Source: Oscillospiraceae bacterium (GTDB lineage Bacteria > Bacillota > Clostridia > Oscillospirales > Ruminococcaceae). From it: a stretch of 39,042 nt of DNA. Positions 11,357 through 29,593 of the stretch are shown one piece after another. Position 1 is the first letter of the stretch, and each line of letters starts with the position of its first letter. Below the pieces are notes generated by a model. The model was not told where the DNA came from. It worked only from the letters and a program-made list of their open reading frames with translations, and searched no databases. Both the position numbers and the translations under genes were made by a program. Location of the stretch: contig WRHO01000015.1 of NCBI GenBank assembly GCA_009783205.1, positions 1 to 39,042 on the forward strand. Direction: 5' to 3'.

Positions 11357-11517
11357 TATAGCAGTTCCACTTAACATTTACACTTTTATCTTGTAAATTT
11401 TGCGTTATACTTCGTTGATTTTTGCTTAAATATAAGCGTATACTCGCACAAAAATCGCCTTGTCTAACACAAAATTTGTCTGCGAATAAAACGCAAATGT
11501 CAAGCGGAACTGCTATA
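11357..11517. repeat. Palindromic element A (161 bp, hairpin-forming)
   Basis: The ends are 25-bp inverted repeats with three mismatches (11357-11381 and 11493-11517). Inner arms also pair, for example AAATTTTGCGTT with AACACAAAATTT, so the whole element can fold into one long hairpin. A 59-bp core (11407-11465) is 52/59 identical to 29456-29514 in element B, while the arms differ between copies. It fills almost the whole gap between udp and the CorC gene. It resembles a MITE but has a conserved middle and variable ends. Confidence 0.85.
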
Positions 11518-11528
11518 CTCCTATAATT

Positions 11529-12311
11529 TTATTTATTTTGTTTTATTAATTTTCGGATTGCTTCTATTGTGCATTTTATAGCCCTTTCGGAGCTTTTACA
11601 GACCTTATCGGGCATACCCGCCTTTGAGCGTTCGACGTTCCATAAAGCGGTCAATACCGCCCCCGCGCGGACATTGCGTACCAACGCCACCGAAAACAAT
11701 GTCGCCGTTTCCATTTCGGAGGCGAGACAGCCCGACTTGACAAAAGCCTCCCACCTGTAGGTAAGATATGGCGCAATCGGCATACCCTCCGGCTCAACCT
11801 CGCCATAGAACGAATCCTTACTTTGCACGACCCCTGTATGATAGGTGTCGCCCTCGACGCCGCTCGAAAGCGCCTTTGCCGATTCGACAATCGCCGTCGT
11901 TACATCAAAATCGGCGACGGCGGGATAACCGGGGGTGAGATATTCGGCACTTGTCCCGTCGCCGCGCACAGACGCCGTAGCCACCACCAAATCCCCGCCG
12001 GTAACCTTGAGGTTTATTCCGCCCGATGTTCCTACCCTTATAAATGTGTGACAGCCGCAGCGAACAAGCTCTTCAAGCGCGATTGCCGCAGACGGCCCGC
12101 CGATTCCCGTTGAAACAACGCTTACCGGAACACCCTCAAGGCTACCCGTGTAGGTTACATATTCGCGATTTGTCGCGATATGAGTCGCATTGTCTAAAAG
12201 GGCGGCAATTTTCTCAACCCTTCCGGGGTCTCCCGGCATTATTACATATTTGCCTACCTGCTCTCGTGTAACCTGCAGATGATATTGCAGGTTTGGGTCT
12301 AACAACGCCAT
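11529..12311 (-). CDS. udp: Uridine phosphorylase
   Basis: A 260-residue cytoplasmic enzyme of the nucleoside phosphorylase-1 family. It splits uridine with phosphate into uracil and ribose-1-phosphate for pyrimidine salvage. Hallmarks: VIMPGDPGRVEKIA near the start (phosphate site), FIRVGTSGGI (about 90-100), and SEMETATLFSVA (about 195-206), the Met-Glu pair that grips the ribose. The YHTGVVQSKDSFYG segment points to uridine rather than purines. Full length for the family. It starts 6 bases after the end of the upstream membrane-protein gene on the same strand, so the two form an operon from the promoter at 12748-12776. Confidence 0.93.
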   Translation of the reverse strand: MALLDPNLQYHLQVTREQVGKYVIMPGDPGRVEKIAALLDNATHIATNREYVTYTGSLEGVPVSVVSTGIGGPSAAIALEELVRCGCHTFIRVGTSGGINLKVTGGDLVVATASVRGDGTSAEYLTPGYPAVADFDVTTAIVESAKALSSGVEGDTYHTGVVQSKDSFYGEVEPEGMPIAPYLTYRWEAFVKSGCLASEMETATLFSVALVRNVRAGAVLTALWNVERSKAGMPDKVCKSSERAIKCTIEAIRKLIKQNK

Positions 12312-12317
12312 AATAGC

Positions 12318-12737
12318 TTACCTCGTTTCTTTTTTTATGTCCCCGATTATTGATTCGGAGGGGGCATTATCTTTTAGTCTTTTATTTTGATTAATATTAA
12401 ACCCCATTATAAGAATAACCGCTGCCGTTTCTAACAAAAGCGGCATATAAGCCCACCAATTTTTCGGAAAAGCGTTAAATACAAATAAAAGCGATACCGC
12501 GCCCGCCGAGGTTAAAGCGGCGGCAGTTTTATACAATTTAAACTTTAATAAAAAACAAGGGATAACGAACCCGATAACAGAAGTAATCAGCCAAAGCACG
12601 GTTATATAGTTGAACTCATATATCTCGGCATCATAACTCACGATAAGACTTACCGGGATTAAAACCCCTAAAACCATCCCCCAAATTGCACCGATAAAGT
12701 TCACTAAAAGCTTTAATAAAAATATAGTCTTTTTCAT
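12318..12737 (-). CDS. Small four-helix membrane protein, unknown
   Basis: A 139-residue protein with about four membrane segments (LLVNFIGAIWGMVLGVLIPV, ITVLWLITSVIGFVIPCFLL, AAALTSAGAVSLLFVF, LLLETAAVILIMGF) and a short charged tail. I do not recognise the family. It is the first gene of an operon with udp, so a link with nucleoside uptake is possible but unproven. A strong promoter lies just upstream. Confidence 0.7.
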   Translation of the reverse strand: MKKTIFLLKLLVNFIGAIWGMVLGVLIPVSLIVSYDAEIYEFNYITVLWLITSVIGFVIPCFLLKFKLYKTAAALTSAGAVSLLFVFNAFPKNWWAYMPLLLETAAVILIMGFNINQNKRLKDNAPSESIIGDIKKETR

Positions 12738-12747
12738 AATAGATTAG

Positions 12748-12776
12748 AGTATACCATATTTTTTATAAACAGTCAA
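12748..12776 (-). promoter_or_regulatory. Sigma-A promoter of the membrane protein-udp operon
   Basis: On the minus strand: TTGACT (12776-12771), a 17-base spacer, then TATACT (12753-12748). It lies 11 bases from the start codon, so the leader is very short. Confidence 0.75.
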
Positions 12777-12823
12777 TATAATACAAGAAAAATTACAAAT
12801 ATATTACAGATAAAATATAATCG

Positions 12824-12852
12824 TTGACAAGCGGGGAAAACTATGATACTCT
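12824..12852 (+). promoter_or_regulatory. Promoter of lipoprotein gene 1
   Basis: TTGACA (12824-12829), a 17-base spacer, TACTCT (12847-12852). The layout and nearby bases (CGTTGACAAGC ... TCTACAT) match the promoter at 13793-13821 before the second lipoprotein gene. Confidence 0.65.
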
Positions 12853-12855
12853 ACA

Positions 12856-12887
12856 TACAGTCGCGAATTTTTAAAAATGCGACTGTA
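12856..12887 (+). promoter_or_regulatory. Leader hairpin before lipoprotein gene 1
   Basis: TACAGTCGC (12856-12864) and GCGACTGTA (12879-12887) form a perfect 9-bp stem at the very start of the expected transcript. An equivalent hairpin sits at 13832-13871 before the second lipoprotein gene. It may stabilise the RNA or serve as a regulatory site. Confidence 0.6.
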
Positions 12888-12936
12888 GAGTACAAAAGAG
12901 TACAAAAAATTTAATTATAAAGGAGACCGGAAAATA

Positions 12937-13623
12937 ATGAAAAAAATATCAGCATTACTTATTGCGGCGGCAATGTGTTTAACCTTAGCGGCTTGTACGC
13001 CTAAACAGGAGGTTGAACAGGTAAAGGATTCTATCGAAGATATTCAGGCGGCTCTCGATGAATTTAACGCGTCTCTTCAGGAGTATCTTGAAGAGGATAA
13101 CGAATTTGACGGATACATTGATTATGATTATGAAGCCGAGATAGACGAATTTATTGAAGAATTTGACGAAACTATGTCTTCTCTCGTTGACCTCGCGGAT
13201 ATTGCCGATGAAATTGACGAAAACGACGACGAACTTGACGAGGACGACCTCAACAACTGGTGCGAGACATTTGTTAATGCTAAGAGCGCGGTCTCAACCT
13301 GGTTAAGCTGGTTAGAAATGCTTGACGAAAGCGTTCCCGATGATTATAGGGCGGCTCACCTCGATGTCGTTTCTGCGGTTGAATCGGTTTCGGAGGTTAT
13401 TACTAATTTTGAGGAAGCCGTTGCCGCCGCGATTGACGGGGAAACAGACGCTTTTTATGAAGGCTTAGCCGACTTTGTTGCTGAAATAGAAAAAGCCGAC
13501 GACGTTTGGAACGACGCAATCGCTTTGTATAATACCGGTAATATTGAGGGCGACAACGACGATGAAGACGAAGGCGGAAACGACGATGGTGAAAATGACG
13601 GCGACGACGAAAACGAAGATTGA
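12937..13623 (+). CDS. Acidic helical lipoprotein, unknown function
   Basis: A 228-residue protein with a lipoprotein signal peptide (MKKISALLIAAAMCLTLAAC). The mature part is strongly acidic, mostly helical and likely coiled (EEVEQVKDSIEDIQAALDEF-like heptads, then IDEFIEEFDETMSSLVDLA). A low-complexity tail of about 30 Asp/Glu/Asn/Gly residues ends the protein. It should sit on the outer membrane face and could bind cations or wall components. Good AAAGGAGA ribosome site. Its promoter and leader hairpin are shared in design with the next gene. A terminator follows. No known family recognised. Confidence 0.75.
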   Translation: MKKISALLIAAAMCLTLAACTPKQEVEQVKDSIEDIQAALDEFNASLQEYLEEDNEFDGYIDYDYEAEIDEFIEEFDETMSSLVDLADIADEIDENDDELDEDDLNNWCETFVNAKSAVSTWLSWLEMLDESVPDDYRAAHLDVVSAVESVSEVITNFEEAVAAAIDGETDAFYEGLADFVAEIEKADDVWNDAIALYNTGNIEGDNDDEDEGGNDDGENDGDDENED

Positions 13624-13652
13624 GAAGGCCCCCTCTTCAAATTTATAATCTA

Positions 13653-13686
13653 TACAGTATCTCGTCATAGAGATACTGTATTTTTA
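13653..13686 (+). terminator. Rho-independent terminator after lipoprotein gene 1
   Basis: TACAGTATCTC and GAGATACTGTA form an 11-bp stem around a six-base loop (13653-13680), followed by TTTTTA. Confidence 0.85.
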
Positions 13687-13792
13687 TATGATATAGCTAA
13701 CTCAACATCTTAATCAAATCTTACAGAATTGTTACAATTTTTAGCCTTTACAGATTAAAGTTTACAATTTCGTTACAATTCATAATTAATCG

Positions 13793-13821
13793 TTGACAAG
13801 CAAAAAAAACTGTGTTATTCT
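13793..13821 (+). promoter_or_regulatory. Promoter of lipoprotein gene 2
   Basis: TTGACA (13793-13798), a 17-base spacer, TATTCT (13816-13821). It is the sister of the promoter at 12824. Confidence 0.7.
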
Positions 13822-13831
13822 ACATGACAGA

Positions 13832-13871
13832 GAGCAGACATACGGAATTGTAAAATTTCTGAATGTCGCTC
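13832..13871 (+). promoter_or_regulatory. Leader hairpin before lipoprotein gene 2
   Basis: GAGCAGACAT (13832-13841) pairs with ATGTCGCTC (13863-13871) with one bulged A. It has the same position and shape as the hairpin at 12856-12887, but a different sequence. Confidence 0.5.
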
Positions 13872-13921
13872 CAAAAGGGTAGAATACCTAAAATTTAAAC
13901 TTATTTAAAAGGAGAAAAATC

Positions 13922-14329
13922 ATGAAAAAATTATTAGCATTACTTATTGCAGCGGCAATGTGTTTCGCTCTCGCAGCTTGCGGAACAGATGAACCCGAAC
14001 CCGAGGTTGTAAACGATACCGAACCCGAGGCTGTAGTCGAAACAGAACCCGAAACAGAACCCGAGATTATTGATGACGAAGAAAACGGTCAAGACGAAGA
14101 TGACGAAGTTGGAATCGTTTGCGAATGTGGTTGTGAAGATTGCACAGGTGAAGAAGACTGTGAATGTTGCGACGAGTGCATCTGCGCTGAATTAAATGCC
14201 GATGACGAAGGCGATGATGAAGGCGATGATGAAGGCGATGATGAAGGCGATGATGAAGGCGACGATGAAGGCGATGATGAAGGCGACGACGAAGGCGATG
14301 ATGAAGGCGACGAAACAGACGCTGAATAA
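13922..14329 (+). CDS. Cys-rich acidic lipoprotein with DDEG repeats
   Basis: A 135-residue lipoprotein. The signal peptide is MKKLLALLIAAAMCFALAAC. A Pro/Glu-rich segment follows, then a compact Cys block with nine Cys in 22 residues (CECGCEDC ... CECCDECIC, about 77-98). The protein ends with nine copies of Asp-Asp-Glu-Gly. The Cys block mixed with acidic residues would bind metals well, and the acidic tail could bind calcium or other cations. The N-terminus is paralogous to the lipoprotein at 12937, but the mature parts are unrelated. No named family recognised; the metal-binding role is inferred from composition only. Confidence 0.7.
   Translation: MKKLLALLIAAAMCFALAACGTDEPEPEVVNDTEPEAVVETEPETEPEIIDDEENGQDEDDEVGIVCECGCEDCTGEEDCECCDECICAELNADDEGDDEGDDEGDDEGDDEGDDEGDDEGDDEGDDEGDETDAE
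14201..14308 (+). repeat. 12-bp tandem repeat, nine units
   Basis: Nine in-frame copies of GATGATGAAGGC, with only T/C changes in Asp codons, encode (DDEG)9. Copy number could change by slippage without breaking the frame. Confidence 0.95.
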
Positions 14330-14343
14330 TATTAAATGACTAT

Positions 14344-14375
14344 AAAACGAGGGAATTTATTTCCCTCGTTTTTTT
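14344..14375 (+). terminator. Rho-independent terminator after lipoprotein gene 2
   Basis: AACGAGGGAA (14346-14355) pairs with TTCCCTCGTT (14361-14370) around a five-base loop, followed by T residues to 14375. Confidence 0.9.
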
Positions 14376-14566
14376 CGTGGTTGCCTATAGTCTGTTAATT
14401 TATATTGCCGATTAATCCAATAAACGGTAGTATATATGGTTGTTTTTACCGTTTTTGTTTGGCGGGCAATTATAAAAATTAAAGTTTTCCTATCATAAAA
14501 ACAATCGTTTTGTTAATATTAATGTCGTAGCGATTTGGCTATGTCAAACAAGAACGGAGATTTTAA

Positions 14567-15856
14567 ATGAGAAGAATAATTAAATTTGTTACGGGATTAT
14601 TTTTAGTTGTTTCGGTCTTATTATGTACAGTTATCGGATTCTATTACGTTAACCTTCCTGACAAGTATTACCTTTCCGATAAAACATTTAAGATTTGTAC
14701 ACTATTTGATATAGATATAGGCGTAGGAAACTCGGACGTAAAGCCGGTTTATGCATCCTCCGACAGCGCGGTAGTGCCAAAAGACGTATCTGTGAAAACG
14801 ACAAATCAAGCGGATTTGAAATTATTGGGGCTTTTTCCTATTAAAACCGTTGACGCGGAAATAATTGAGCGACCGTTGCTCATTCCCTGCGGTACGCCAT
14901 TCGGTATAAAAATAATAACCGGCGGCGCGATTGTTACAGAATTTGGCGAGGTTGACGGCGAGGACGGATATTCCTCACCCGCGCGCGACGGCGGAATAAA
15001 AATAGGGGATATAATAATAAAGGTAAACGACATGGAAATAACGCAAAATGGGGACATTTCCGAAGCGGTACAGCTTAATCCGGAAATTGCACAAATAATC
15101 CACATTCGCGACGGCAAATCGCTCGAAACGAATATTGTACCCGTTAAATCCAACAAAGACGATTCATTAAAAATAGGAATGTGGGTAAGAGATTCGAGCG
15201 CGGGAATAGGCACATTAACCTTTTATAACCCGTCGGACGGAACCTTTGGGGGATTAGGACACGCGGTATGCGATGTCGATACGGGGCAAAAGCTTCCTCT
15301 TTTAAGCGGCGATGCCGTTTCGGTAAACATTTCCGGCGTTACAAAAGGGTTTTCGGGTTCACCGGGCGAGCTTAACGGAAGCTTTCTTTCGAGGGTTCCC
15401 ATAGGTGAAATAAGATGCAACACCGAGGCGGGTATATTCGGCGTTATGGAAAGTCCGCCCACGATAGAAGGCGCAATCCCTATGTCGTATAAGCAAGAGG
15501 TGGAAATAGGAAGCGCGAAGATTATTGCAACCGTTGACGGAAGTTCTCCTAAAGAATACGACGTAATCATCGAAAAAATAGACTACAGCGATAAGAACAA
15601 GGTGAAAAATATGGTGGTGAAGGTTACGGATAAAGAGCTTTTAAGCAAGGCGGGCGGCATTGTTCAAGGAATGTCCGGTAGCCCGATTGTGCAAAACGGG
15701 AGATTAGCGGGGGCGGTAACGCACGTTTTTGTCAGCGACCCGACAAGAGGATACGCTATTTTTGCGGAAAATATGTATAGAGAGTCGTTGGAAATTGTTG
15801 AGCCTTTCGCGATTGTTGAAAAGGAATATGAAGAGGAATATGAGGACGCCGCTTGA
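14567..15856 (+). CDS. spoIVB: SpoIVB serine peptidase (sporulation)
   Basis: A 429-residue protease of family S55. In sporulating Bacillus and Clostridia it is made in the forespore and exported. There it cleaves SpoIVFA and so frees the protease that activates sigma-K in the mother cell (many Clostridia lack SpoIVFA, so the target here may differ). An N-terminal membrane anchor (about 6-27) is followed by a PDZ domain (about 110-190, DGGIKIGDIIIKVNDMEITQ) and the S55 domain. The domain has the catalytic His near 232 in GGLGHAVCD and Ser near 370 in QGMSGSPIVQNG. Full length with all motifs present. GGAG lies upstream of the ATG. It stands alone here; the usual neighbours recN and spo0A were not seen. 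Confidence 0.95.
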   Translation: MRRIIKFVTGLFLVVSVLLCTVIGFYYVNLPDKYYLSDKTFKICTLFDIDIGVGNSDVKPVYASSDSAVVPKDVSVKTTNQADLKLLGLFPIKTVDAEIIERPLLIPCGTPFGIKIITGGAIVTEFGEVDGEDGYSSPARDGGIKIGDIIIKVNDMEITQNGDISEAVQLNPEIAQIIHIRDGKSLETNIVPVKSNKDDSLKIGMWVRDSSAGIGTLTFYNPSDGTFGGLGHAVCDVDTGQKLPLLSGDAVSVNISGVTKGFSGSPGELNGSFLSRVPIGEIRCNTEAGIFGVMESPPTIEGAIPMSYKQEVEIGSAKIIATVDGSSPKEYDVIIEKIDYSDKNKVKNMVVKVTDKELLSKAGGIVQGMSGSPIVQNGRLAGAVTHVFVSDPTRGYAIFAENMYRESLEIVEPFAIVEKEYEEEYEDAA

Positions 15857-15877
15857 TGAATATTAATCCGACAGTAC

Positions 15878-15903
15878 AGCGCGAATGTAAAAACATTCGC
15901 GCT
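15878..15903 (+). terminator. Hairpin after spoIVB, weak terminator
   Basis: AGCGCGAATGT and ACATTCGCGCT form a perfect 11-bp stem with an AAAA loop, 22 bases after the spoIVB stop. There is no T-run after it, so termination would be weak or it may protect the RNA end. Confidence 0.5.
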
Positions 15904-15975
15904 TACATACGGTATTTCCCAATATATAAAATAATACAAGTTTAACAATTATTTTTTCTGTATATAAAATTTTAC

Positions 15976-16005
15976 TTGACTTGACAGATGGTTTTATTAT
16001 ATAAT
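15976..16005 (+). promoter_or_regulatory. Promoter of the unknown gene at 16050
   Basis: TTGACT (15976-15981), an 18-base spacer, TATAAT (16000-16005). A TTGACA overlaps at 15981-15986 but would give too short a spacer. Confidence 0.6.
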
Positions 16006-16018
16006 AGCTTTAATTGCA

Positions 16019-16052
16019 TTTTGTGCATCGGAAAGGAATGGTCGTAAAAATG
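16019..16052 (+). promoter_or_regulatory. Shared 34-nt translation leader, copy 1
   Basis: The consensus is TTTTGTGCNTCGGAAAGG then AATGGTCATAAAAATG, where the last ATG is the start. It also occurs at 29675 and 33716, with looser copies at 20385 and 38721. An ATG directly follows AAAGGA, too close to be used, so the real start is 12 bases further on and in frame. Unrelated genes share it. Confidence 0.75.
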
Positions 16053-17678
16053 TTAAAATCAAATCTTAAAGACGGCAGTTATAACGGACTGTCCACTGAA
16101 CTCGAGCAATTTCTTTGTCAAGAAGCGAAGTTTACCAAGAAAAAAGCAAACACAATCGTTGCGGCTTTGAAAGAGTTGTACGAAACGCGCCCATGGCGGC
16201 TCGATGACATTGCAGATTTCATAGAAGAGTATGAAATTGATTTGACTATGGAGCAGACGAATCAGTTTATCGGTTTAGCTATGTCGATTTACAATGCTTG
16301 CCCGAACAAGTTTGAGTTCGACATGGGCGAGTATATGATAAAAACACAAGCGAAACATCAGCAGAGAATGGCGGCTTTTCGTGAACCGCCGCCCCGCAAC
16401 TCGGAAAAGTCAAACAACAATATTACACTTATACCGAGAAAATCTGTTGCTGAAAATTCCGCCGCCTTAGAAGAGATGGATAACATGAGTCAAAAAGATA
16501 TTGTCGGATTATTGGGGAGGATTATGTCCGGTGAAGCAAGCCAAGCCGACCTCGACCTAATCGAAGCTATTCCCGGTTTGATGGACGATATGGACGAGTT
16601 TAAAGAAGAAATGGGTGAATATTTTACCGATTCGCAGTTCCTCGAAGCGTTTGAACAACATAGCGAAATGCTCGATTCGCTCGTCATTGGCGGCAAGCCC
16701 GTTAAAACTCTTAAAGGAATAGTCGGCAAAAAATCGGTTGCAGAGTTGCGTGAAATTGCTCCGCTAATGGGGATTGAGAATTGCGATAAGTTCAAAAAGT
16801 CCGAATTGGTAAAAGCAATTTGTGACGACAGAATAAATCGCGGCGCGCGCAGATTTTTTGAACTTATGCCCGATGAAGCGTTCGATATGATTGATGCTTT
16901 AGCTGTGGATTGGTTTCCTGTGCCTGCCGAAGACTTGTTTGAATATCCCATGCTTATAAATTCGTTTATAGTCGCTGTTTTCGATTACAACGGAAAGTAT
17001 TACCCCATTCTTCCTTTGGAAATTGAAGATGTTTTCACCGGACTCGACGATGATTTTGAAGAAGAACGTGAAAATTCACAGCTTTTAGGCGATTACGCAC
17101 AGGCGGCGGTTAATCTTTACGGCGCGATTGAAATTGACAGGCTTATGGAAATGTTTAAGAAGAACGGAAACGATTACAGCCAAGCGAAAACTCGCGAGGA
17201 TTTAATCAAGGCTTTGAACGTAATGGGGTCTTTACGGAAAAGCTTTATTGCCCTCGATGATTGCTTGATTGAGATTACTTTGCATTTCAAAACAGAAGAG
17301 AGCAAAAGCGACCGTGTTGCGCGACTTATTGAGAACCACGATAAGCCGATGTATGTTCCGAAAAGCGAAGACGATTTTTTAGAGTATGCGGATAAAGAAT
17401 ATTACGAAGAAACGGCTACCGTAACAAAACTCGAAGACATTTTTGAAAAAGTCCTCGGTGATGATTTCGTAATGCTGACAGCGGCTTTGGTGTTTTCAAT
17501 CAGAGCGGGGTTATACGAGAGCGAAAATCAACTTATGGAAATGATTGAAAAAGGTTGCAAAATGAGTCGGTGTAAATTAACGTCAGCACAGAAAAAGAAA
17601 ATCGCAGGACTTTTGCCGCTATTGTGCGAAGAAACAAGAACGTGGGATAATAATGGCTTTACAACAGTGAAGATTTAG
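16050..17678 (+). CDS. Unknown 542-residue protein with Rho-N/SAP-like segment
   Basis: A soluble, acidic protein with no signal peptide or membrane segment. A segment at about 228-260 (KSVAELREIAPLMGIENCDK, then FKKSELVKAICD) fits the short helix-extended-loop-helix of the Rho N-terminal/SAP type, which often contacts nucleic acids. The rest is helical with Glu/Asp-rich stretches (e.g. DDMDEFKEEMGEY). I do not recognise the whole protein. ATG at 16050 is used because the upstream ATG touches the ribosome site. It has its own promoter and uses the leader also found in the phage cluster, so a mobile-element origin is possible. It is monocistronic. Confidence 0.7.
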   Translation: MLKSNLKDGSYNGLSTELEQFLCQEAKFTKKKANTIVAALKELYETRPWRLDDIADFIEEYEIDLTMEQTNQFIGLAMSIYNACPNKFEFDMGEYMIKTQAKHQQRMAAFREPPPRNSEKSNNNITLIPRKSVAENSAALEEMDNMSQKDIVGLLGRIMSGEASQADLDLIEAIPGLMDDMDEFKEEMGEYFTDSQFLEAFEQHSEMLDSLVIGGKPVKTLKGIVGKKSVAELREIAPLMGIENCDKFKKSELVKAICDDRINRGARRFFELMPDEAFDMIDALAVDWFPVPAEDLFEYPMLINSFIVAVFDYNGKYYPILPLEIEDVFTGLDDDFEEERENSQLLGDYAQAAVNLYGAIEIDRLMEMFKKNGNDYSQAKTREDLIKALNVMGSLRKSFIALDDCLIEITLHFKTEESKSDRVARLIENHDKPMYVPKSEDDFLEYADKEYYEETATVTKLEDIFEKVLGDDFVMLTAALVFSIRAGLYESENQLMEMIEKGCKMSRCKLTSAQKKKIAGLLPLLCEETRTWDNNGFTTVKI

Positions 17679-17697
17679 TTGGAAGTTATACGGAGAC

Positions 17698-17725
17698 TTG
17701 ACAAAAATAGATTTTATGTTATAAT
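17698..17725 (+). promoter_or_regulatory. Promoter of the solute-binding protein gene
   Basis: TTGACA (17698-17703), a 16-base spacer, TATAAT (17720-17725), only 17 bases before the ATG. The leader must be about 11 nt, which leaves room for just a weak ribosome site. Confidence 0.75.
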
Positions 17726-17742
17726 TTTAAGAGAAGTATATT

Positions 17743-19227: not shown

Positions 19228-19317
19228 AGAAAACATCTGAAAGCATTTGAGGAAAACGCGACCGCCCCCGATTTCCTAACCAATTTTTACAAATTTAACG
19301 ACAAATTAAAATTTTTC

Positions 19318-19346
19318 TTGACAAATCGCGCATAATATAGTATGAT
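19318..19346 (+). promoter_or_regulatory. Promoter of the polysaccharide deacetylase gene
   Basis: TTGACA (19318-19323), a 17-base spacer, TATGAT (19341-19346). The deacetylase, bactofilin and flavoprotein genes follow without a clear terminator between them. Confidence 0.75.
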
Positions 19347-19423
19347 GTATTATGTGTATCAAACAGATGCCATAAATAGTGTTTCAAATTCGTTTTAATC
19401 GAACATACGGGGGGTACGGAATT

Positions 19424-20371: not shown

Positions 20372-20384
20372 TGAGCTTTTAAGG

Positions 20385-20409
20385 CTCGGAAAGGTATGTT
20401 GAAAAAATG
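20385..20409 (+). promoter_or_regulatory. Shared translation leader, divergent copy before bactofilin
   Basis: GGCTCGGAAAGGTATG is followed by the true ATG 11 bases after the first ATG. The first ATG would open a six-codon frame (MLKKWE) that overlaps the start of the bactofilin gene. Compare the copy at 38721. Confidence 0.6.
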
Positions 20410-21489
20410 GGAATAAAAGAAAACTTTACCCAAGCGGTAAAAGAGCTTACGGGAATAGGAAAAGAGAAACCCCCCGAAAAAACGCCCCCGCCTAAAAGCC
20501 CCGATACGGTTGAGGGTTTGAAAAAAGCGGTAGGCGGCGGGGTTGAGTCGGTTTCGCGCGAAATTAAATTAGATACACCCGACTGGTCCGTACCCGACTG
20601 GGACGGGAGCGAGGCTTCCACAATTCGCCCTATACCTAAGCAACCGGAGGCTGAACAAGCGTCGTCGATTCCCGTTGCGGAGTCGCCGCCGGCTTCAACA
20701 CCCGCGGCAGAGTTGTTTTTATCGGGTGGCAGTACACCTGCTTCGCGATTCGGCGGACAAGTTCAACCCGAGCAACAGGCGACGCGACAGTTTCCGTCTT
20801 CTCCCCCTCCTCCACCACCTCCTCCGTCGTCGTTTCAACCGCCTCAAGCACAGCACGCACAACAGCAACAAAACGCGCCGCAATCACAACAACCTGCATT
20901 TTATCCCCCTCCGCAATCTGTTCAAAATCAAAATGCTCAACCGCTTTCTTTTGCACAGTCTTCCGGACGGTCGGGTGGAATGAGCGAAGAGAGCGAGCTG
21001 ACCGTTATTTCCCGTAACACCATTATTGAGGGAAGTATTCGTTCATTTGCGGATATGAGCATTGACGGTGCGATAAAGGGCGATGTTGAAACTACTAAAA
21101 ATATTGATTTAAACGGTAAGGTTATAGGGAATATTTCCTGTAACAACGCTATGATGCACACGTCCGAGGTTCAGGGGAATGTACGCATGAAGGGCAATAT
21201 CAGCATGAAACGCGACACCCTGCTGATAGGAGACCTTATGTCTACATACGCCGAGGTAAACGGTAAGGTTCAAGGAAATCTCGACGTTATAGGCAAGGCG
21301 GACGTTAAGGGCGACGCGGTTATTTTTGGCGATATAAGCTCTTCTACCCTTGCGGTTGAGGACGGCGCGCTTATTCAAGGGTATGTCAATACGACGTTCC
21401 TTAATAAAGAAGAAAGTAAGAATCTTTTCCCGGATACGGTCGTTATAAACACCGATATGGGGAATACCGCTCCGGGAAGCACAACATGA
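20407..21489 (+). CDS. Bactofilin with long Pro/Gln-rich N-terminus
   Basis: A 360-residue cytoskeletal protein. The C-terminal bactofilin domain (about 195-340) is a beta-helix with rungs such as NTIIEGSIRSFADMSIDGAI, VQGNVRMKGNISMKRDTLLI and KADVKGDAVIFGDISSSTLA. It polymerises without nucleotide into filaments that place wall enzymes. The first 190 residues are low complexity (eight consecutive prolines at about 135-142, then Gln/Asn-rich), longer than usual for the family, and may bind partners. The stop overlaps the start of the flavoprotein gene by 4 bases, so they are coupled. The deacetylase upstream fits a role in wall shape. Confidence 0.92.
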   Translation: MGIKENFTQAVKELTGIGKEKPPEKTPPPKSPDTVEGLKKAVGGGVESVSREIKLDTPDWSVPDWDGSEASTIRPIPKQPEAEQASSIPVAESPPASTPAAELFLSGGSTPASRFGGQVQPEQQATRQFPSSPPPPPPPPSSFQPPQAQHAQQQQNAPQSQQPAFYPPPQSVQNQNAQPLSFAQSSGRSGGMSEESELTVISRNTIIEGSIRSFADMSIDGAIKGDVETTKNIDLNGKVIGNISCNNAMMHTSEVQGNVRMKGNISMKRDTLLIGDLMSTYAEVNGKVQGNLDVIGKADVKGDAVIFGDISSSTLAVEDGALIQGYVNTTFLNKEESKNLFPDTVVINTDMGNTAPGSTT

Positions 21490-22724: not shown

Positions 22725-22742
22725 AGAACTGTTTCTATACTG

Positions 22743-22775
22743 TATAATATCATCATTTTAACAAACAATGATATT
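22743..22775 (+). promoter_or_regulatory. -10 box and palindrome before the TSUP pair
   Basis: TGTATAAT (22741-22748) is an extended -10 box. AATATCAT (22746-22753) and ATGATATT (22768-22775) form an inverted repeat that ends directly at the ATG. No ribosome site is visible. It could be an operator, or a hairpin that hides the start. Confidence 0.5.
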
Positions 22776-23126
22776 ATGAATACAAAACAAAAGCTTATGA
22801 CGGGATTAACGTCGGGACTTCTTAACGGGTTGTTCGGGTCGGGCGGCGGCGTTGCCGCTGTGCCGCTTCTCGAACGCTCAAAGCTCGAACAGCGAAAATG
22901 TCACGCGACATCGGTCGTTTTAATTTTCGTTTTGTCCTTATTCTCTGCGGGAATGTACGCGTTAAACGGTAGTCTCGATTATGCCAAAGCCGCCGAATTC
23001 ATTCCGGCGGGCTTGCTCGGTGCATTGGTCGGGGCGGGGTTGCTCAAGAAAATTAAAAATGACATACTTAAACGTGTATTCGGCGCGGTTATACTAATAT
23101 CGGCAATTCGTATGTTTATAGTATAG
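22776..23126 (+). CDS. TauE/SafE (TSUP) transporter, half-size subunit 1
   Basis: A 116-residue membrane protein with about four helices. It matches one half of a sulfite/sulfonate-type TSUP transporter, opening with GLTSGLLNGLFGSGGGVAAV, the glycine-rich motif of each half. Typical members are about 250 residues with two such halves in one chain. Here the second half is the next gene. The pair most likely forms a heterodimer. The substrate (sulfite, organosulfonate or another anion) cannot be told from sequence. Confidence 0.85.
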   Translation: MNTKQKLMTGLTSGLLNGLFGSGGGVAAVPLLERSKLEQRKCHATSVVLIFVLSLFSAGMYALNGSLDYAKAAEFIPAGLLGALVGAGLLKKIKNDILKRVFGAVILISAIRMFIV

Positions 23127-23147
23127 GTATAGTATAGGGGATTTTTT

Positions 23148-23498
23148 ATGAGTCATATTGCGGGATTTTTAGCGGGAATAACCGCCTCAATGGGTTTAGG
23201 CGGCGGGTTTATCCTTATTATTTATTTGAGCTTTTTTAAAGATATTTCTCAATCGGCGGCGGGAGGGATTAACTTGTTGTTTTTCCTTCCGATTGCGCTC
23301 GTTTCTTCCGTTATTCATATAAAAAACGGGTTGGTCGAAAGGTCGATTATCCCCGCTATATGTATTGCGGGGATTGCCGGAGCGGGTGCGGGCGTTCTTT
23401 TGATGAGCTTTCTCGACGAGGGGATATTGCGTAAGCTTTTCGCTTGTTTATTAGTTTTTGTCGGGTTGCGAGAATTGTTTCATAAATCGAACATCTAA
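23148..23498 (+). CDS. TauE/SafE (TSUP) transporter, half-size subunit 2
   Basis: Also 116 residues, 21 bases after its partner. It opens with FLAGITASMGLGGGFILIIY, the same glycine-rich helix motif, and has four helices. It completes the two-half TSUP fold. Its stop overlaps the end of a small convergent gene by 4 bases. Confidence 0.85.
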   Translation: MSHIAGFLAGITASMGLGGGFILIIYLSFFKDISQSAAGGINLLFFLPIALVSSVIHIKNGLVERSIIPAICIAGIAGAGAGVLLMSFLDEGILRKLFACLLVFVGLRELFHKSNI

Positions 23499-23653
23499 AC
23501 AGTTTCGTAGGGTGTTTTGTTATCTTTGAGAATTTGTAAAACGTATTTCTCAACATCTTCAATTGTTTTACAATCCTCTTTTATTGTAAGAAGAATTTTT
23601 TGACAGGTTGATTGAATCGCTAAACGCTCAATAATTTCCGCGCTATTTGCCAT
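23495..23653 (-). CDS. Small 52-residue protein, unknown
   Basis: MANSAEIIERLAIQSTCQKI and onward: a small helical protein with no membrane segment. AAAGGTGG lies 7 bases before the ATG. An in-frame ATG 18 bases upstream overlaps that site and is less likely. The leader is a copy of the one before the neighbouring gene (23846-23871). It is second in a two-gene operon. I do not recognise it. Confidence 0.6.
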   Translation of the reverse strand: MANSAEIIERLAIQSTCQKILLTIKEDCKTIEDVEKYVLQILKDNKTPYETV

Positions 23654-23675
23654 ATTGTCACCACCTTTCATACGC
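23650..23675 (-). repeat. 26-bp leader repeat, copy 1
   Basis: Identical to 23846-23871 except for one base. It contains CGTATGAAAGGTGGTGAC and the start codon of the downstream small gene. Confidence 0.9.
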
Positions 23676-23849
23676 TTATTTTCGATTTGATTTCCATTCT
23701 TCGAAACGACTTTCAACAGATTTAACATCTTCTTCTTCCATTTTTGCCTTAAAATTAACAATAAGAGTGTGAAAATCGTTGGTGTGTTCTGCCACAAGAA
23801 GTTTAAAAAGAATATCACGTTCATCATGCCGAGTATCAATTTGAGCCAT
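23676..23849 (-). CDS. Small 57-residue protein, unknown
   Basis: MAQIDTRHDERDILFKLLVA and onward: charged, helical and probably cytoplasmic. It uses the same duplicated leader (AAAGGTGG then ATG) as the next gene, which follows after 22 bases. A good promoter stands at 23874-23901. The layout of two tiny genes resembles a toxin-antitoxin pair, but neither matches a family I know, so no function is claimed. Confidence 0.6.
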   Translation of the reverse strand: MAQIDTRHDERDILFKLLVAEHTNDFHTLIVNFKAKMEEEDVKSVESRFEEWKSNRK

Positions 23850-23871
23850 ATCGTCACCACCTTTCATACGT
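23846..23871 (-). repeat. 26-bp leader repeat, copy 2
   Basis: Second copy of the ribosome-binding leader, one mismatch from 23650-23675. Confidence 0.9.
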
Positions 23872-23873
23872 TT

Positions 23874-23901
23874 ATTATACCATAATCAGCCACGATGTCA
23901 A
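23874..23901 (-). promoter_or_regulatory. Promoter of the two small genes
   Basis: On the minus strand: TTGACA (23901-23896), a 16-base spacer, TATAAT (23879-23874). Both boxes are perfect. Confidence 0.8.
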
Positions 23902-23909
23902 GTGTATTT

Positions 23910-24821
23910 TTAATCCATAATGCCGGTTCTTGCGAAGGCACCGTTAAATTCTTCCTCGGTTATGTTATTCGCTTCCAGCAATTTGAGCATTGTCTTTTGG
24001 TTCCAGCTTTTGAATATGTCTAATAAAGCGTTCACCTTTTCCATTTTATCGCCGAGATGTTCATTTGCAACGCGCTCGTCAAACTCTTCGTCTTTTAGGA
24101 ACGCCGCATACATTTTATCTATGTCTTCGAGCCGCTTTTCGAGCGATTCTTTTGTTCTTTTTGATTCCGCCGCAAAATTTTCCTCCGTGCGCGTCCATTG
24201 TCCGCTTATAGAGACGTCATCAATAATTGCCGCCGCCGCACTCCTTTTATCAGTTGCCGCTAAAAACATTGCGCCCGAGAAAAGATATTCAAATGTTTTT
24301 GTGTCGAACGGGTCGCTCTCTTTCCTTCCCCTTGCGGATACAACGTCGTCTATTTTCACCTGTACCTTGTCAAGAAGCTCTCTAACCTCGTCAACCGATA
24401 CTCGCGTTTTTTTAATTCCGCTAAATGCGAATTTGCCTTTGTCTACATAGCCGTCTTTAGATAATATGTCCTCATAGTAGGCTTTTTCTTTTTTTAAGGA
24501 GTTAAACCTTTCTAATTCCTTCTCCTCGTGTTCAATCGCTTCTTTTGTCAACCTTTTAAGGTTTTCTTTGTACATATACGCCATATGCTTCCTGTCCTCT
24601 GCGGAAAGGCACATTATTTTCAAAAGGTTGTTTTCAATTCTTTTGTTAAGCCCCGCGATGAAATTATCGCTGACTTGATTTACAAATGTATCAAAATGTC
24701 CGTTGAAAACAGAATTGATGTTTTTAAGTTGATTCGGAGCGGAAAGACCTCCGCGATTTGTTTCGGTTACGGGATTATTTGCAAACGGGTTTATACCGCC
24801 GATATTATTGTTAACAGTCAT
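23910..24821 (-). CDS. Coiled-coil protein, unknown function
   Basis: A 303-residue soluble protein. The N-terminus is flexible and Asn/Gly-rich (VNNNIGGINPFANNPVTE). It is followed by long charged helices, including HEEKELERFNSLKKEKAYYE and SKRTKESLEKRLEDIDKMYA. No signal peptide or membrane segment and no enzyme motif. AAAAGGAAAA precedes the ATG. It may be a structural or secretion-linked protein, but I recognise no family. It lies upstream of the two small genes on the same strand. Confidence 0.65.
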   Translation of the reverse strand: MTVNNNIGGINPFANNPVTETNRGGLSAPNQLKNINSVFNGHFDTFVNQVSDNFIAGLNKRIENNLLKIMCLSAEDRKHMAYMYKENLKRLTKEAIEHEEKELERFNSLKKEKAYYEDILSKDGYVDKGKFAFSGIKKTRVSVDEVRELLDKVQVKIDDVVSARGRKESDPFDTKTFEYLFSGAMFLAATDKRSAAAAIIDDVSISGQWTRTEENFAAESKRTKESLEKRLEDIDKMYAAFLKDEEFDERVANEHLGDKMEKVNALLDIFKSWNQKTMLKLLEANNITEEEFNGAFARTGIMD

Positions 24822-24911
24822 AACAGTTGTTTTCCTTTTCGATATATTTGAGTTTAATATCGGACGGACATAGGTAAAACTTTACTTTTAGAATTTTTAT
24901 TAATTTAGTTC

Positions 24912-24940
24912 TTGACATTTTTTACATAATGAACTATAAT
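24912..24940 (+). promoter_or_regulatory. Promoter of the giant protease gene
   Basis: TTGACA (24912-24917), a 17-base spacer, TATAAT (24935-24940): a full consensus match. The leader is about 90 nt. Confidence 0.85.
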
Positions 24941-25019
24941 AACTATGTATAGTAATTGTAAAATAATGAGATTTGAGTCGATGAGTCGAGAAAAGAGAAA
25001 AATTATTTGGAAATTATTT

Positions 25020-25044
25020 AAAAGGAGACTAACTATTATGAAAA
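25020..25044 (+). promoter_or_regulatory. Shared ribosome-binding leader, copy 2
   Basis: Identical over 25 bases to 6010-6034 before the LRR-dockerin gene; contains AAAGGAG and the start codon. Confidence 0.8.
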
Positions 25045-28000
25045 AACGCATACTGTCCTTATTTGTTACAAGCGCGATGTTGTTTAACACCGTCGCGGTT
25101 GCGGCGATTCCCGCTATTCTTTCGGAGCCGCATGAAACCCCGGGGTTTGCGGACTTAGCCTCTTCTGATACCGAGCCTTGGTTAGCGGAGGGATTTGTCC
25201 CGGGATATATTGAAGCAGAGAATAATAGAGAATACCCGCATATCCCGTGGTTTCAAGCGTTTGCGATTGTACCGGAGAAATATGACGGCAGAGAATCCGG
25301 TTATATATCTAATATAAAGAACCAGGGGTCTAACGGCTTGTGTTGGGCTTTTACGTCTTCTGCGGTTGCCGAAGCTAATATGCTCAAAAACGGGCAGGGA
25401 ATGAACAGCTTTTCGGAATTGCATATGGGCTATTCCACCGCTTTAAACCACGTCGGAAACAATTATGCTCTCCTTCCGAGCGGTAGTTATAACCCGCGAT
25501 ACAACCCCGGCGACGGCGGACACGAAACGATTGCTTTAAATTATTTTATGCGCGGCGTTTTCGGCGGATTGGTTAATAATTCTAAAGACCCTTATGTTAC
25601 GGCGAGCATACCCGCGCGAGATGTTGCGATTACCCAAAGCATAACGAGGGATTTCGCCGTTCAAAATGCATTTTATCTCGGAGGCTCAAAAGGCAGCGTA
25701 ACTCCGACTCAGATTAAGGAATCGGTTATTGAGTACGGCGCGGTCGGCGCGGCAATGTACTGGGACGAGCCGACTTATAACGAACAATACTCATCGTATT
25801 ATTATTCGAGTCCGACCAGTCCGAGTCATGCCGTTGCTATTATCGGGTGGGACGATAATTTTTCGAAGACTAAATTTAAAACAGTCCCGCCTAATGACGG
25901 CGCGTGGCTCGTAAAAAATAGCTGGGGGGTTTCATTTGGTGATAGCGGATGCTTTTGGATTTCATATGATGACGCAAGCTTTCCGATATATACTTACACT
26001 ATTGACAGAGTGAAGACATTTAACCCCGAGTCGACAACCCTTCACGAGTATGATTACTTAGTGACGGAGTCTTCAGACGGCCCGAGTTCTTCCGATACTA
26101 ATTTTTATGCGCGCGTTTTCACCACCGACAAAGATAACGAAAAGCTTGAACAGGTTGTTGTTGAATCGTTGACCTCCGACGTTATGTTTTCGGTTGATGT
26201 AATACCGAATTTTCAAGGCTTTGACAGTTATCAGACAACCGATTTTTCGGTAAAAGCAACCAAGACGGTCACGTATCCGGGGCATTATACGCTCGATTTG
26301 GGGACGGCGGTCGATTTGGGGGACGCGGGTTCGCAGTTTGCGGTTGTTGTCAAGTTTGACAAAATTAATACGAGCGGTGCGGCTTATTATCCCTATACAT
26401 CGTCATTGTCCGCGTCCGCAGGTACAGCCTTTCACTCCGCAGGCGGCGCGTTCGCGAGCACAACGCGCAGTTATAAAATAAAAGCGGTAACTACCGTCAG
26501 TATTTGTGAGTATTGTGACAAATATATCTGTATTTGTGTTCGTTGCGGCGAATGTGACGAGATAGGTAAAACGCTTTGTTCCGACTGTGGCGTATGCGCC
26601 GAGTGTAACGCCGACGTATACGGGTATACAAGCTGTCCCGATTGTGACGTTTGTTCGGGCTGTAACGTCGGAAACGGCGTGGTTATTTGTCCCGATTGTG
26701 ACACTTGTTCCGCTTGTAACGATAAAAAGATACCTTCGGTTCATTATTGTTCCGAGTGTGATTTGTGTTTTGAATGCGTCGATATGTGTGCTTATTGCGG
26801 GTTATGCACAGACTGTTGCGAGTGTGTTGAGCTACCCGACGGGATTATCTACGATATGCAAACCGACGATAATATATGGCATATGGAAGGCAGCGGAAAC
26901 AACCCGAGCTATTACAACACAGATACCTTATTCAGAGTCAGCAGCAGTAATGTAAGCATTGTGGTGGATAACGACCCGCCTAAAGTAATTACAGTGAAAA
27001 GAAGCGGCAGCACCAGTTCGGCTCAAGCAATACGAATGAGGCTAAATACGATAACATTTAAGCCGGGTCATTCGTATAAATTCGAGATTGGCGGTAGGTT
27101 TATTAACCCCGCGGCGAATGTTCAAGCGCGGTTGCGCTTTGAGTATGTTGATAATCTTAACGGATTGTACAATAACGACGTTTTAAAGCTTCAACCGCTC
27201 GACAATAACGGTTATTTCAGCATGGATTATAACACAACCTATACCCAATTATCAAAGCATATTACGGCAACCAATAATGTCGCGGAATACAGTATCGGAA
27301 GCACCGGAAGCTCTCCCCTTCCCGATATGGTCATTACCATGTTCCGTATTATCGAAAAGCCTATGGGCGTTAATTCCTGTGCGTTTTGCGGGCAGGAAAG
27401 CACTACCCGCTGTGTAAGCTGTGGTTATTGTACCGATTGTATCGTCAGTATCTGTGAGGTTTGTAACAAGTGTGAAAAATGTTGCACTTGCGTTCCCGTA
27501 TATGACGGCGTAGTTTACGATATGCAAAAGGACGCTAAATTGTCGGATTTAGACGGAACTAACACCCAGCCCTCCTCAAACGTATTGAGAAGAGGTTCGT
27601 CCAGTGCGGAGTATTCCGTAGATATGAACGACCCGAGAAAAATCAGCATAACGAGAAGCGCGGCTACGTCTTCACAGGCAATTCTGATAAGATTAAACAA
27701 TTTGGCGATTAGCCCTAAACATTCATATCAATTCGAGATTTCGGGTAAATTTATTAACCCCGCCGCCGGTCTTCAGGCAAGGTTGCGTTTTGAGGACACA
27801 GTCACCAAGGTGCTAAAGCTTGAGCCGCTCGACGAAAACGGCGAATTTAGCATGGTCTACGATACGACCCATGAACAGATTTCGCAACATCTAAGCGGCG
27901 GTAGCTACAGCATCGGCTGTAACGGAAGCTCGAGCGTCCCTTACGCCAATATGGTAATTACCTCATTGCGTATTGTTGAAGCCCCGCTCCCCGCTAATGC

Positions 28001-29225
28001 CTGCGTTTTATGCGCGGAGCAAAACGCCAACCGCTGTGTCGATTGCGGATATTGCGTAAAATGCGTCGAACGCATTTGTACAGTTTGTAAAAAATGCGAA
28101 AAAAGCTGTGTGTGCGTCTTTTACTGTGCCGAGTGTAACGAGGAGCTATCGGAGTGTATTTGTTGTACCGATTGTTGGAAGTATCCTTGTGTATGTCCGC
28201 CGGAAACAACCGCGACTACTGAGGAGACGACCGTGACGACGACCACCACTGAGGTTACCACTACGCCCGAGCCTACTACTACAACGCCCGAACCCACTAC
28301 AACACCCGAGCCTACTACTACAACGCCCGAGCCTACTACTACAACGCCCGAGCCTACTACTACAACACCGGAGCTTACTACTACAACACCCGAGCCTACT
28401 ACTACAACGCCCGAGCCTACGACCACGCCGGAGCCTACTACGACCACTCCCGAGCCTACCACGACAACGCCCGAGCCTACGACAACGCCCGAGCTTACAA
28501 CCACGCCCGAGCCTACCACAACGCCCGAGATTACGACCACGCCGGAGCCTACTACGACAACGCCCGAGCCTACGACAACGCCCGAGCTTACGACAACGCC
28601 CGAGCTTACGACCACACCGGAGCCTACTACGACCACTCCCGAGCCTACCACAACGCCCGAACCTACTACAACACCTTTCTATGGTTTTTGTACCAAGTGC
28701 GGGGCGGCGTTGACCGGCGGTAATTTCTGTGCCGGTTGCGGAAGCCCGGTCGGAACAACGACGGAGACAACCACCACGGAGCCGGTGACAACCACTACGG
28801 AACCGGAAACGACTACATCTGAGCCGGAGACGACTACTTCTGAACCGGAGACAACTACTTCTGAACCGGAGACGACGACATCTGAACCGGAGACGACTAC
28901 TTCTGAACCGGTGATAACTACCACAGAGCCGGTGATAACTACCACAGAGCCTTTGACAACTGCCACCGAACCCGTTACAACCAATACCGTGCCGAAGAAT
29001 AAGCCGGGGATAATTTCAAGTAAGGGCGAAGAAGAAGGCGCGCCGACAATCTTCTGTTTCATTGAGATACTATTGTATCTTGTGAAAATGCCGAGTAACG
29101 CTAAGGACAATTCTGCGGCAATTCTAAGCCCCGAGGGTGAAGCGGCGGGAGAGCCTACCATATTCTGTGCTATTGAAATTCTTTTGTATATAGTGGGATT
29201 ACCGACTTATAAAACACTTGGATAA
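25038..29225 (+). CDS. Giant secreted papain-family (C1A) protease with zinc-ribbon-like, CBM-like and dockerin-like modules
   Basis: A 1395-residue exported protein. After the signal peptide comes a C1A peptidase with Gln96 and Cys102 (NIKNQGSNGLCWAF), His264 (PSHAVAIIGWD) and Asn294 (VKNSWG), followed by a lectin-like domain as in clostridial Cwp84-type enzymes. Next are Cys-rich CxxC arrays (about 488-598, 780-822, 987-1055). They alternate with two repeated beta-sandwich modules (about 601-775, 823-985) that start DG[IV][IV]YDMQ and resemble carbohydrate-binding modules. Then come Thr-Pro-Glu repeats (1057-1213), a single zinc ribbon (CTKCGAALTGGNFCAGCG), Thr-Ser-Glu-Pro repeats, and a dockerin-like pair. 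In both dockerin repeats the usual Asp is Cys (PTIFCFIEILLY, PTIFCAIEILLY). It is probably a surface protease for host or microbial glycoproteins. The ATG at 25038 matches the ribosome site and signal peptide. Confidence 0.85.
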   Translation: MKKRILSLFVTSAMLFNTVAVAAIPAILSEPHETPGFADLASSDTEPWLAEGFVPGYIEAENNREYPHIPWFQAFAIVPEKYDGRESGYISNIKNQGSNGLCWAFTSSAVAEANMLKNGQGMNSFSELHMGYSTALNHVGNNYALLPSGSYNPRYNPGDGGHETIALNYFMRGVFGGLVNNSKDPYVTASIPARDVAITQSITRDFAVQNAFYLGGSKGSVTPTQIKESVIEYGAVGAAMYWDEPTYNEQYSSYYYSSPTSPSHAVAIIGWDDNFSKTKFKTVPPNDGAWLVKNSWGVSFGDSGCFWISYDDASFPIYTYTIDRVKTFNPESTTLHEYDYLVTESSDGPSSSDTNFYARVFTTDKDNEKLEQVVVESLTSDVMFSVDVIPNFQGFDSYQTTDFSVKATKTVTYPGHYTLDLGTAVDLGDAGSQFAVVVKFDKINTSGAAYYPYTSSLSASAGTAFHSAGGAFASTTRSYKIKAVTTVSICEYCDKYICICVRCGECDEIGKTLCSDCGVCAECNADVYGYTSCPDCDVCSGCNVGNGVVICPDCDTCSACNDKKIPSVHYCSECDLCFECVDMCAYCGLCTDCCECVELPDGIIYDMQTDDNIWHMEGSGNNPSYYNTDTLFRVSSSNVSIVVDNDPPKVITVKRSGSTSSAQAIRMRLNTITFKPGHSYKFEIGGRFINPAANVQARLRFEYVDNLNGLYNNDVLKLQPLDNNGYFSMDYNTTYTQLSKHITATNNVAEYSIGSTGSSPLPDMVITMFRIIEKPMGVNSCAFCGQESTTRCVSCGYCTDCIVSICEVCNKCEKCCTCVPVYDGVVYDMQKDAKLSDLDGTNTQPSSNVLRRGSSSAEYSVDMNDPRKISITRSAATSSQAILIRLNNLAISPKHSYQFEISGKFINPAAGLQARLRFEDTVTKVLKLEPLDENGEFSMVYDTTHEQISQHLSGGSYSIGCNGSSSVPYANMVITSLRIVEAPLPANACVLCAEQNANRCVDCGYCVKCVERICTVCKKCEKSCVCVFYCAECNEELSECICCTDCWKYPCVCPPETTATTEETTVTTTTTEVTTTPEPTTTTPEPTTTPEPTTTTPEPTTTTPEPTTTTPELTTTTPEPTTTTPEPTTTPEPTTTTPEPTTTTPEPTTTPELTTTPEPTTTPEITTTPEPTTTTPEPTTTPELTTTPELTTTPEPTTTTPEPTTTPEPTTTPFYGFCTKCGAALTGGNFCAGCGSPVGTTTETTTTEPVTTTTEPETTTSEPETTTSEPETTTSEPETTTSEPETTTSEPVITTTEPVITTTEPLTTATEPVTTNTVPKNKPGIISSKGEEEGAPTIFCFIEILLYLVKMPSNAKDNSAAILSPEGEAAGEPTIFCAIEILLYIVGLPTYKTLG
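28206..28677 (+). repeat. TTTPEP-coding repeat tract
   Basis: Degenerate tandem repeats of 12-18 bp encode Thr-Thr-(Thr)-Pro-Glu-Pro/Leu linkers. A second tract at about 28756-29000 encodes Thr-Thr-Ser-Glu-Pro-Glu. Both should be extended, likely glycosylated stalks. Opposite-strand open frames in this region are a by-product of the repeats. Confidence 0.9.
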
Positions 29226-29312
29226 GCCAAACAAGAGATAAGCCAAAAGGACGGGGTTTACTCGTCCGAGGGGCGAATCTTGACGGCGGGTAATGATAAA
29301 AAAATAGTAAAG

Positions 29313-29346
29313 ACAACCTTCGAAATCTTTTTTGGGGGTTGTTTTT
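29313..29346 (+). terminator. Possible weak terminator after the protease gene
   Basis: ACAACC (29313-29318) can pair with GGTTGT (29337-29342), followed by TTTT. The stem is short and the loop large, so this is a weak candidate. Confidence 0.4.
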
Positions 29347-29401
29347 GTTGCAAAGGCAACGAAACGTGGCACTATTGCTTTTAAGCAGATGTTATTCTTG
29401 T

Positions 29402-29569
29402 ATATGGCAACCTCCGAAAACCTCTTCCGGCACTCGCCGGTTGAAAAATTCCGCCATACTTCGTTGATTTTTCTTTAAATATCAACGGATATTCGCAGAA
29501 AAATCGCCTTGTCTGATGAAATTTTCATCTCGACGATTACACAAAACAGGTTTTCGGAGGTTGCCATAT
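29402..29569. repeat. Palindromic element B (168 bp, hairpin-forming)
   Basis: Its ends are perfect 22-bp inverted repeats (29402-29423 and 29548-29569). The 59-bp core at 29456-29514 matches the core of element A at 52 of 59 positions, while the outer arms share no clear sequence with A. Inner arms still pair. One core pair flips from G-C in A to C-G in B (before TTTAAAT and after TCGCA), a compensatory change. Confidence 0.85.
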
Positions 29570-29593
29570 GGCGGATTGCCTATAAAAATATAT

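Follow-up and report, generated by a model that had tools for sequence, protein, structure and literature searches.

The palindromic elements of the window

The window analysed here is the whole 39,042-nucleotide stretch of contig WRHO01000015.1, from an Oscillospiraceae bacterium. The first-pass annotation had placed two palindromes, A and B, at 11357-11517 and 29402-29569, and both were present as described. For B, the earlier extent was amended: the element lies there, and the outermost ATAT on each side was recognised as a 4-bp target duplication, leaving B proper at 160 bp. The features are as follows, with positions counted from the first letter of the window.

11357..11517, minus strand (the folded strand): element A, a 161-bp MITE-like hairpin with TATAGCAGTTCC-type ends
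11407..11416, minus strand: element A, one side of the conserved internal loop (minus strand AACGAAGTAT)
11417..11424, minus strand: element A, one side of the 8-bp inner stem that covaries in the covariation tests
11449..11456, minus strand: element A, other side of the 8-bp inner stem that covaries in the covariation tests
11457..11465, minus strand: element A, other side of the conserved internal loop (minus strand AGACAAGGC)
29402..29405, no strand: ATAT, left copy of the 4-bp target duplication of element B (flanks ATAT / ATAT)
29406..29565, minus strand (the folded strand): element B proper, a 160-bp MITE-like hairpin with GGCAACCTCCGAAAACC-type ends
29456..29465, minus strand: element B, one side of the conserved internal loop
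29466..29473, minus strand: element B, one side of the 8-bp inner stem that covaries in the covariation tests
29498..29505, minus strand: element B, other side of the 8-bp inner stem that covaries in the covariation tests
29506..29514, minus strand: element B, other side of the conserved internal loop
29566..29569, no strand: ATAT, right copy of the 4-bp target duplication of element B (flanks ATAT / ATAT)

A and B share a 59-bp core at 52 of 59 positions (88%), and the arms are self-complementary within each copy (outer arms 83% over 30 nt and 96% over 25 nt). The compensatory swap reported after GATTTTT and before AAAAATC proved real, with A reading GATTTTTG / CAAAAATC and B reading GATTTTTC / GAAAAATC. 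Folded as RNA, the minus strand reached -67.8 kcal/mol for A (z -10.3) and -81.8 kcal/mol for B (z -11.0), with 0/200 shuffles as stable in either case, and this stability excludes chance as the source of the two palindromes.

Several other features of the window were noted. A 34-nt leader-like repeat (..CTCGGAAAGGAATGGTC..) occurs at 16019-16052, 20377-20410, 29675-29708, 33716-33749 and 38716-38749, at or shortly before ORF starts in four of the five cases as judged by eye, and strings like it, with a small GAGC..GCTC hairpin, were seen beside several elements elsewhere in the genome. Read by eye from the ORFs, a phage-like gene block starting beside element B occupies 29580-38749, and a 1426-aa ORF at 24945-29225 has the look of a papain-like protease and carries cysteine-rich repeats as well as long TTPEP repeats.

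A family with one core and many ends

We found that A and B are members of an extensive family of small mobile DNA elements that occurs in several bacterial phyla. The core recurs many times in the source genome, and the arms of the copies pair. Trained on 30 diverse sequences, a covariance model gave 45 matches there, and BLAST gave 42 matching stretches with A and 55 with B, of many arm types, although part of these stretches were counted on both strands and part cover arms only. In a phylum-wide scan that scored 10 candidates per genome, a part of all candidates, the model matched at least 23 of 398 genomes (the source genome counted) and 19 of 267 genera. When 150 candidates per genome, again a part of all, were scored in 12 genomes chosen for holding a motif hit, each gave from at least 1 to at least 80 model matches. 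Nitrosospira Nl5 held at least 21 and a Bacteroidetes MAG at least 80, and the carriers beyond the source genome include Pseudomonas, Pseudoduganella, Nitrosospira, Lutispora, Bacteroidetes MAGs and others.

A scan of genome contigs for the exact motif, which fixes the letters of the internal loop, returned at least 110 stretches, compared to a chance expectation of about 0.4 hits (hand arithmetic under uniform bases). The same motif had 0 matches in viral contigs, and one Pseudomonas copy searched against plasmids gave no match. The covariance model is now at hand for detecting the family in further genomes.

The copies have no coding capacity, are present in many copies, lie mostly between genes, and carry TIRs and target-site duplications. 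The first-pass annotation is corrected to this extent, that the copies are themselves MITE-like with paired TIRs. Its observation that the ends vary while the core stays was right. Among the eleven TIR types of the source genome, core identity averaged 81% (lowest pair 70%), while TIR identity averaged 47%, compared to 46% after shuffling, with related pairs reaching up to 86%. The build is modular, with unrelated TIRs standing on one core. Using a TIR library written by hand from the copies read, the same TIR type was found on both sides in 37 of 40 copies of the source genome and hybrids in 0; two of the remaining three copies were cut by contig ends and one was without a clear right TIR. 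The 5 of 45 copies outside this set were typed by eye (four B and one B').

Copies in the source genome measure 158-163 bp (36 copies with both ends placed; 4 of the 40 had no placed ends). Among 129 distinct elements from all sources with located ends, out of 173, 86 fell within 155-172 bp, a range that held 71 of 95 elements from Bacillota and the rest, 9 of 16 from Bacteroidetes, 5 of 7 from Pseudomonas and Pseudoduganella, and 1 of 11 from Nitrosospira. This near-constant length may come through mere common descent. The flanks fell into three classes, namely TATA ends, 3-bp TNA and 4 bp. Type I showed a 3-bp TNA target duplication in 5 of 7 copies, and types B and B' showed a 4-bp duplication in 6 of the 11 copies for which both flanks were available, as read by eye; for the TATA-ended types the duplication was ambiguous.

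The position of the copies relative to genes bears on whether they could be a host regulatory or terminator element that has spread near genes. In line with this, crude ORFs contain few of the cores (114 of 124 are outside), and a median distance of 73-83 bp separates the core and the next ORF. Against it, orientation to the flanking genes was random (34/34/11/10 among 89 of the 124 cores, the other 35 lacking a gene within 600 bp on one of their sides), and the distribution was patchy, with 7 of 25 genomes of the genus positive by BLAST. A host regulatory role was rejected on the random orientation, which fits an element serving itself, and the host-element explanation as a whole is highly improbable.

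Some copies in other genomes depart from the usual build, lacking TIRs or standing in tandem arrays (L161, L090, L227). In a Ruminococcus MAG (L161:6983-7441), a tandem hairpin array of 4.3 copies with a period of 106 bp and four model matches sits between argB- and argD-like genes, named from their ORFs, with the folded strand antisense to them. In two rumen MAGs (L090:402-497 and L197), a TIR-less copy comes directly after the stop codon of a gene resembling rpsN, in the same position in both. Six loci (L404, L406, L407, L410, L204 and L206) were internally deleted, with the TIRs kept, the core mostly or wholly lost and a shortest length of about 43 bp. In the relative G003, B-type TIRs surround a different interior (L401, L402 and L403), and two of these loci contain a further insertion.

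Covariation, internal loop and strand preference

Selection on a single-strand fold, as suggested by the first-pass annotation, is well supported by helix covariation, compensatory changes, a conserved internal loop and strand asymmetry; the proposed fold stood, and the selected strand is the minus strand, opposite to the one first read. In 30 diverse sequences compared with the named structure, double changes were seen in 21 of 31 pairs (shuffled mean 15.7; 1/500 shuffles as high), and the covariation score was 0.413 compared to 0.146 after shuffling (0/500 as high), dropping to 0.07-0.19 when the partner was slid by 1-3 columns. Paired cells made up 87.1% of these sequences and 70.7% after shuffling, the apical stem being weakest at 71.7%. 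RNAalifold, run on a MAFFT alignment that was not fitted to the structure, recovered the interrupted-loop hairpin unaided with 17 of 25 pairs doubly changed, and four in-loop pairs were invariant in that alignment because the motif fixes them.

A gapless test gave the same picture. Here, 159 hits that included elements reached repeatedly were reduced to 107 unique elements and then to 40 below 80% identity. The inner 8-bp stem was paired in 244 of 320 cells (shuffled mean 146; maximum of 2000 shuffles 176), and arm positions 5-15 were paired in 341 of 440 cells, compared to 225 by shuffling. At position 4 of the inner stem, the 40 elements used all four Watson-Crick pairs (TA 17, AT 9, GC 8 and CG 3).

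On the strand opposite to the one first read, the internal loop with its closing pairs reads C-RA-G-GC / AA-C-GMA-G. Its conservation was assessed in 59 nonredundant elements from loci outside the model-building set, and is quoted from the 48 of these without the exact motif, since that motif fixes the loop letters. At eleven positions of the loop and closing pairs, one base was kept in 41-48 of the 48 elements, a figure that is partly built in as the elements were found with model R1. One loop position also covaried in a non-Watson-Crick manner. Of the 40 nonredundant elements, 25 have A facing C and 15 have G facing A (40/40 fitting); the reduction that gave this set also took out all six A-A loops. 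Among the 107 unique elements, 72 A-C and 29 G-A loops fitted and 6 were A-A, and the covariation was weaker in the wider set of 59, where 40 and 9 fitted and 10 did not. Both copies in the window carry A-A at this position, fitting neither form.

We considered whether the paired stems need any function at all. Ordinary MITE subfamilies from one ancestor could have their stems kept paired by replication slippage and template switching, and five B/B' copies do show such templated correction, their internal loop 1 having changed from CGCA to TAAA, the perfect complement; the internally deleted copies would also fit. Helix covariation may thus be partly a product of palindrome correction. Such correction would erase a mismatched loop, yet the loop was retained at the level given above, which in part reflects the model used to find the elements, and 55 of the 59 elements show a preference for one strand. 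We regard a family without function as very unlikely, and we infer that the interior fold is under selection, for the element's own spread.

One strand is favoured in most elements. On the strand first read, two stem positions are mostly C-A oppositions, which on the opposite strand become G-U wobbles. By RNA energy, that opposite strand was the more stable in 35 of 37 elements of one set and 55 of 59 of another, the second set having been oriented by the covariance model, which may favour the modelled strand. Within this second set, the preference was seen in 44 of the 48 elements without the exact motif. The energies cannot separate RNA from single-strand DNA.

A role of the same fold as RNA is possible, and we rate it almost as likely as the DNA-level role set out below. 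Minus-strand read-through transcripts would carry the motif as a protein-binding site, a cleavage site or a small self-cleaving ribozyme, easing insertion harm or aiding the element. Such a role would account for the U-G wobbles at the two stem positions (24/30 and 23/30 sequences), the A-C / G-A loop covariation in the 40 elements, the G-A oppositions that are plentiful by eye in the inner stem of some classes, and the RNA energy gap of 8.7-11.6 kcal/mol between strands. Yet in the wider set the wobbles were not dominant (17/59 and 25/59) and 10 of 59 loops misfit, DNA parameters prefer this strand too (57/59), and neighbouring genes show no orientation preference. The arms are highly variable, so a shared promoter seems unlikely, which also counts against transcripts of this kind.

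The family was likewise absent from Rfam. Rfam 15 had 0 matches in the window at the gathering score, and element B gave 12 sub-threshold hits at E<=10, the best being MIR4208 at 34.1 bits, where the gathering score is 140; the weak miRNA hits arise because the element is a long hairpin. Across 20 related loci, the sole Rfam hits at E<=0.1 were a tRNA lying next to an element and a plastid model covering the same tRNA. A tRNA gene was noted near one Bacteroidetes copy (L335:39-110).

Probable exchange of ends, a proposed mechanism and known systems

Candidate transposase partners were examined. The K-type TIR, found in relatives and outside the 11 types of the source genome, showed full identity across 18-21 nt with ends beside IS630 (DDE_3) reading frames in genome G017, these frames being partial and cut by contig ends. 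G017 also contains a complete IS630 whose ends resemble types N, M and L and carry no hairpin, and TIR types L, M, N and H bear a distant likeness to one IS630. For the A or B types no autonomous partner was found, with 32 of 102 candidates scored in the source genome, and the DDE_Tnp_1 loci of seven genomes gave no TIR match among the best 40 rows. IS630 as the mover of all types was dropped: DDE_3 was found in 0 of 10 other element-bearing genomes, and by eye no inverted TAGTACTCTGT-type end pair stood 1-2 kb apart in G384 or G245. A candidate empty site was noted in G010, where the two gene matches recur but lie 166 bp closer together (a gap of 739 in the query and 573 in the subject); the intervening sequence is too diverged for the join to be read.

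The arms were compared in four pairs, two of which were the same elements; the boundary was abrupt on both sides in one, clearly so on the left only in one, and graded in one. L105 and L062 have about 29 nt of both inner arms in common and then diverge abruptly on both sides, and in L123 the left arm resembles type F (74% to its best match) and the right arm is of type G (95%). Both observations, together with the differing flanking duplications, argue against a history without exchange, in which the arms evolved rapidly alongside changing transposases and the core was simply slower. Such drift would fit the narrow length range across 36 copies of 11 types, the likeness of types L, M, N and H to one IS630, and the difference between L064 and L069, which looks graded. 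On balance we consider it unlikely.

Our preferred explanation, to which we give an even chance as a whole, is that these elements are MITE-like, that their ends differ and have probably been exchanged, and that the strand-specific fold of their interior is under selection for their own spread. Each would be a non-autonomous transposon of about 160 bp in which two modules are combined. The outer one would be a TIR pair, about 20-25 bp each, recognised in trans by a DDE transposase and occurring in many types, always as a matching pair in the source genome. The inner module would be a strand-specific hairpin head, made up of an apical hairpin, a small loop, the covarying 8-bp stem and the purine-rich internal loop, closed by the covarying arms. 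In this way MITEs of several transposase families would carry one common interior fold. The TIRs would be exchanged as pairs, probably by recombination within the common core followed by re-symmetrising, a step beside which the templated correction in the five B/B' copies may be cited.

The loop would be read in single-stranded form, aiding the element's own spread. The folded strand may be the lagging-strand template or a displaced strand, and its folding in the cell would bring both ends into one duplex, while a widely conserved host factor, a putative binding protein, would recognise the loop, placed at a fixed spacing from both ends. We hold this DNA-level job of uniting the ends and presenting the loop only tentatively, at somewhat less than even. 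Single-strand DNA is placed slightly ahead of RNA because the spacing between loop and ends is nearly constant whatever the TIR sequence, Nitrosospira excepted. It is also conceivable, though rather doubtful, that the family represents a new mobile non-coding class, in which one folded module in at least three phyla borrows the ends of any transposon and one hairpin parasitises several unrelated transposases, the loop being a universal host factor site or a small ribozyme.

Bacterial MITEs are usually regarded as shortened transposons and defined by their ends. The present family reverses this picture, as its interior is conserved and selected and its ends differ. The origin of MITEs and their switching between transposases thereby become testable, as does the role of a strand-specific loop in an element that encodes nothing. 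In the open-licence papers searched by motif and topic, no description of the family was found, the two motif hits being unrelated by title.

Integron attC sites and REP/RAYT elements also form single-strand hairpins, in which unpaired bases provide strand-specific recognition by a recombinase or transposase. REP/RAYT elements have a GTAG-type foot and a RAYT gene, and neither system is known to share the loop described here. The likeness lies in the strand-specific single-strand hairpin, whereas the ends of the present family resemble the TIRs of DDE transposons with target duplications.

Closer in build are several short elements from the literature, compared here by description. The Correia/NEMIS elements of Neisseria are non-autonomous, measure about 107-155 bp, carry TIRs with TA at the ends and give stem-loop transcripts (PMC2229807), a build much like that of the present family. 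They differ in being known from Neisseria with related TIRs, and the parts of that account consulted here mention no internal loop common to several phyla (PMC2229807). RUP of Streptococcus pneumoniae, at 107 bp with TIRs like those of IS630-Spn1 and a TA target, is likewise short and similarly bounded; it is described as one element in one species, and the same parts of the account do not mention an interior common to other MITEs (PMC2229807). MITEs in general are described, in the portion of the source drawn on, as short, with TIRs, direct repeats at the target and transcripts with stable stem-loops (PMC10969869). Compared to that description, it is the interior of the present family, and not its ends, that is common to the TIR types and phyla and that covaries on one strand.
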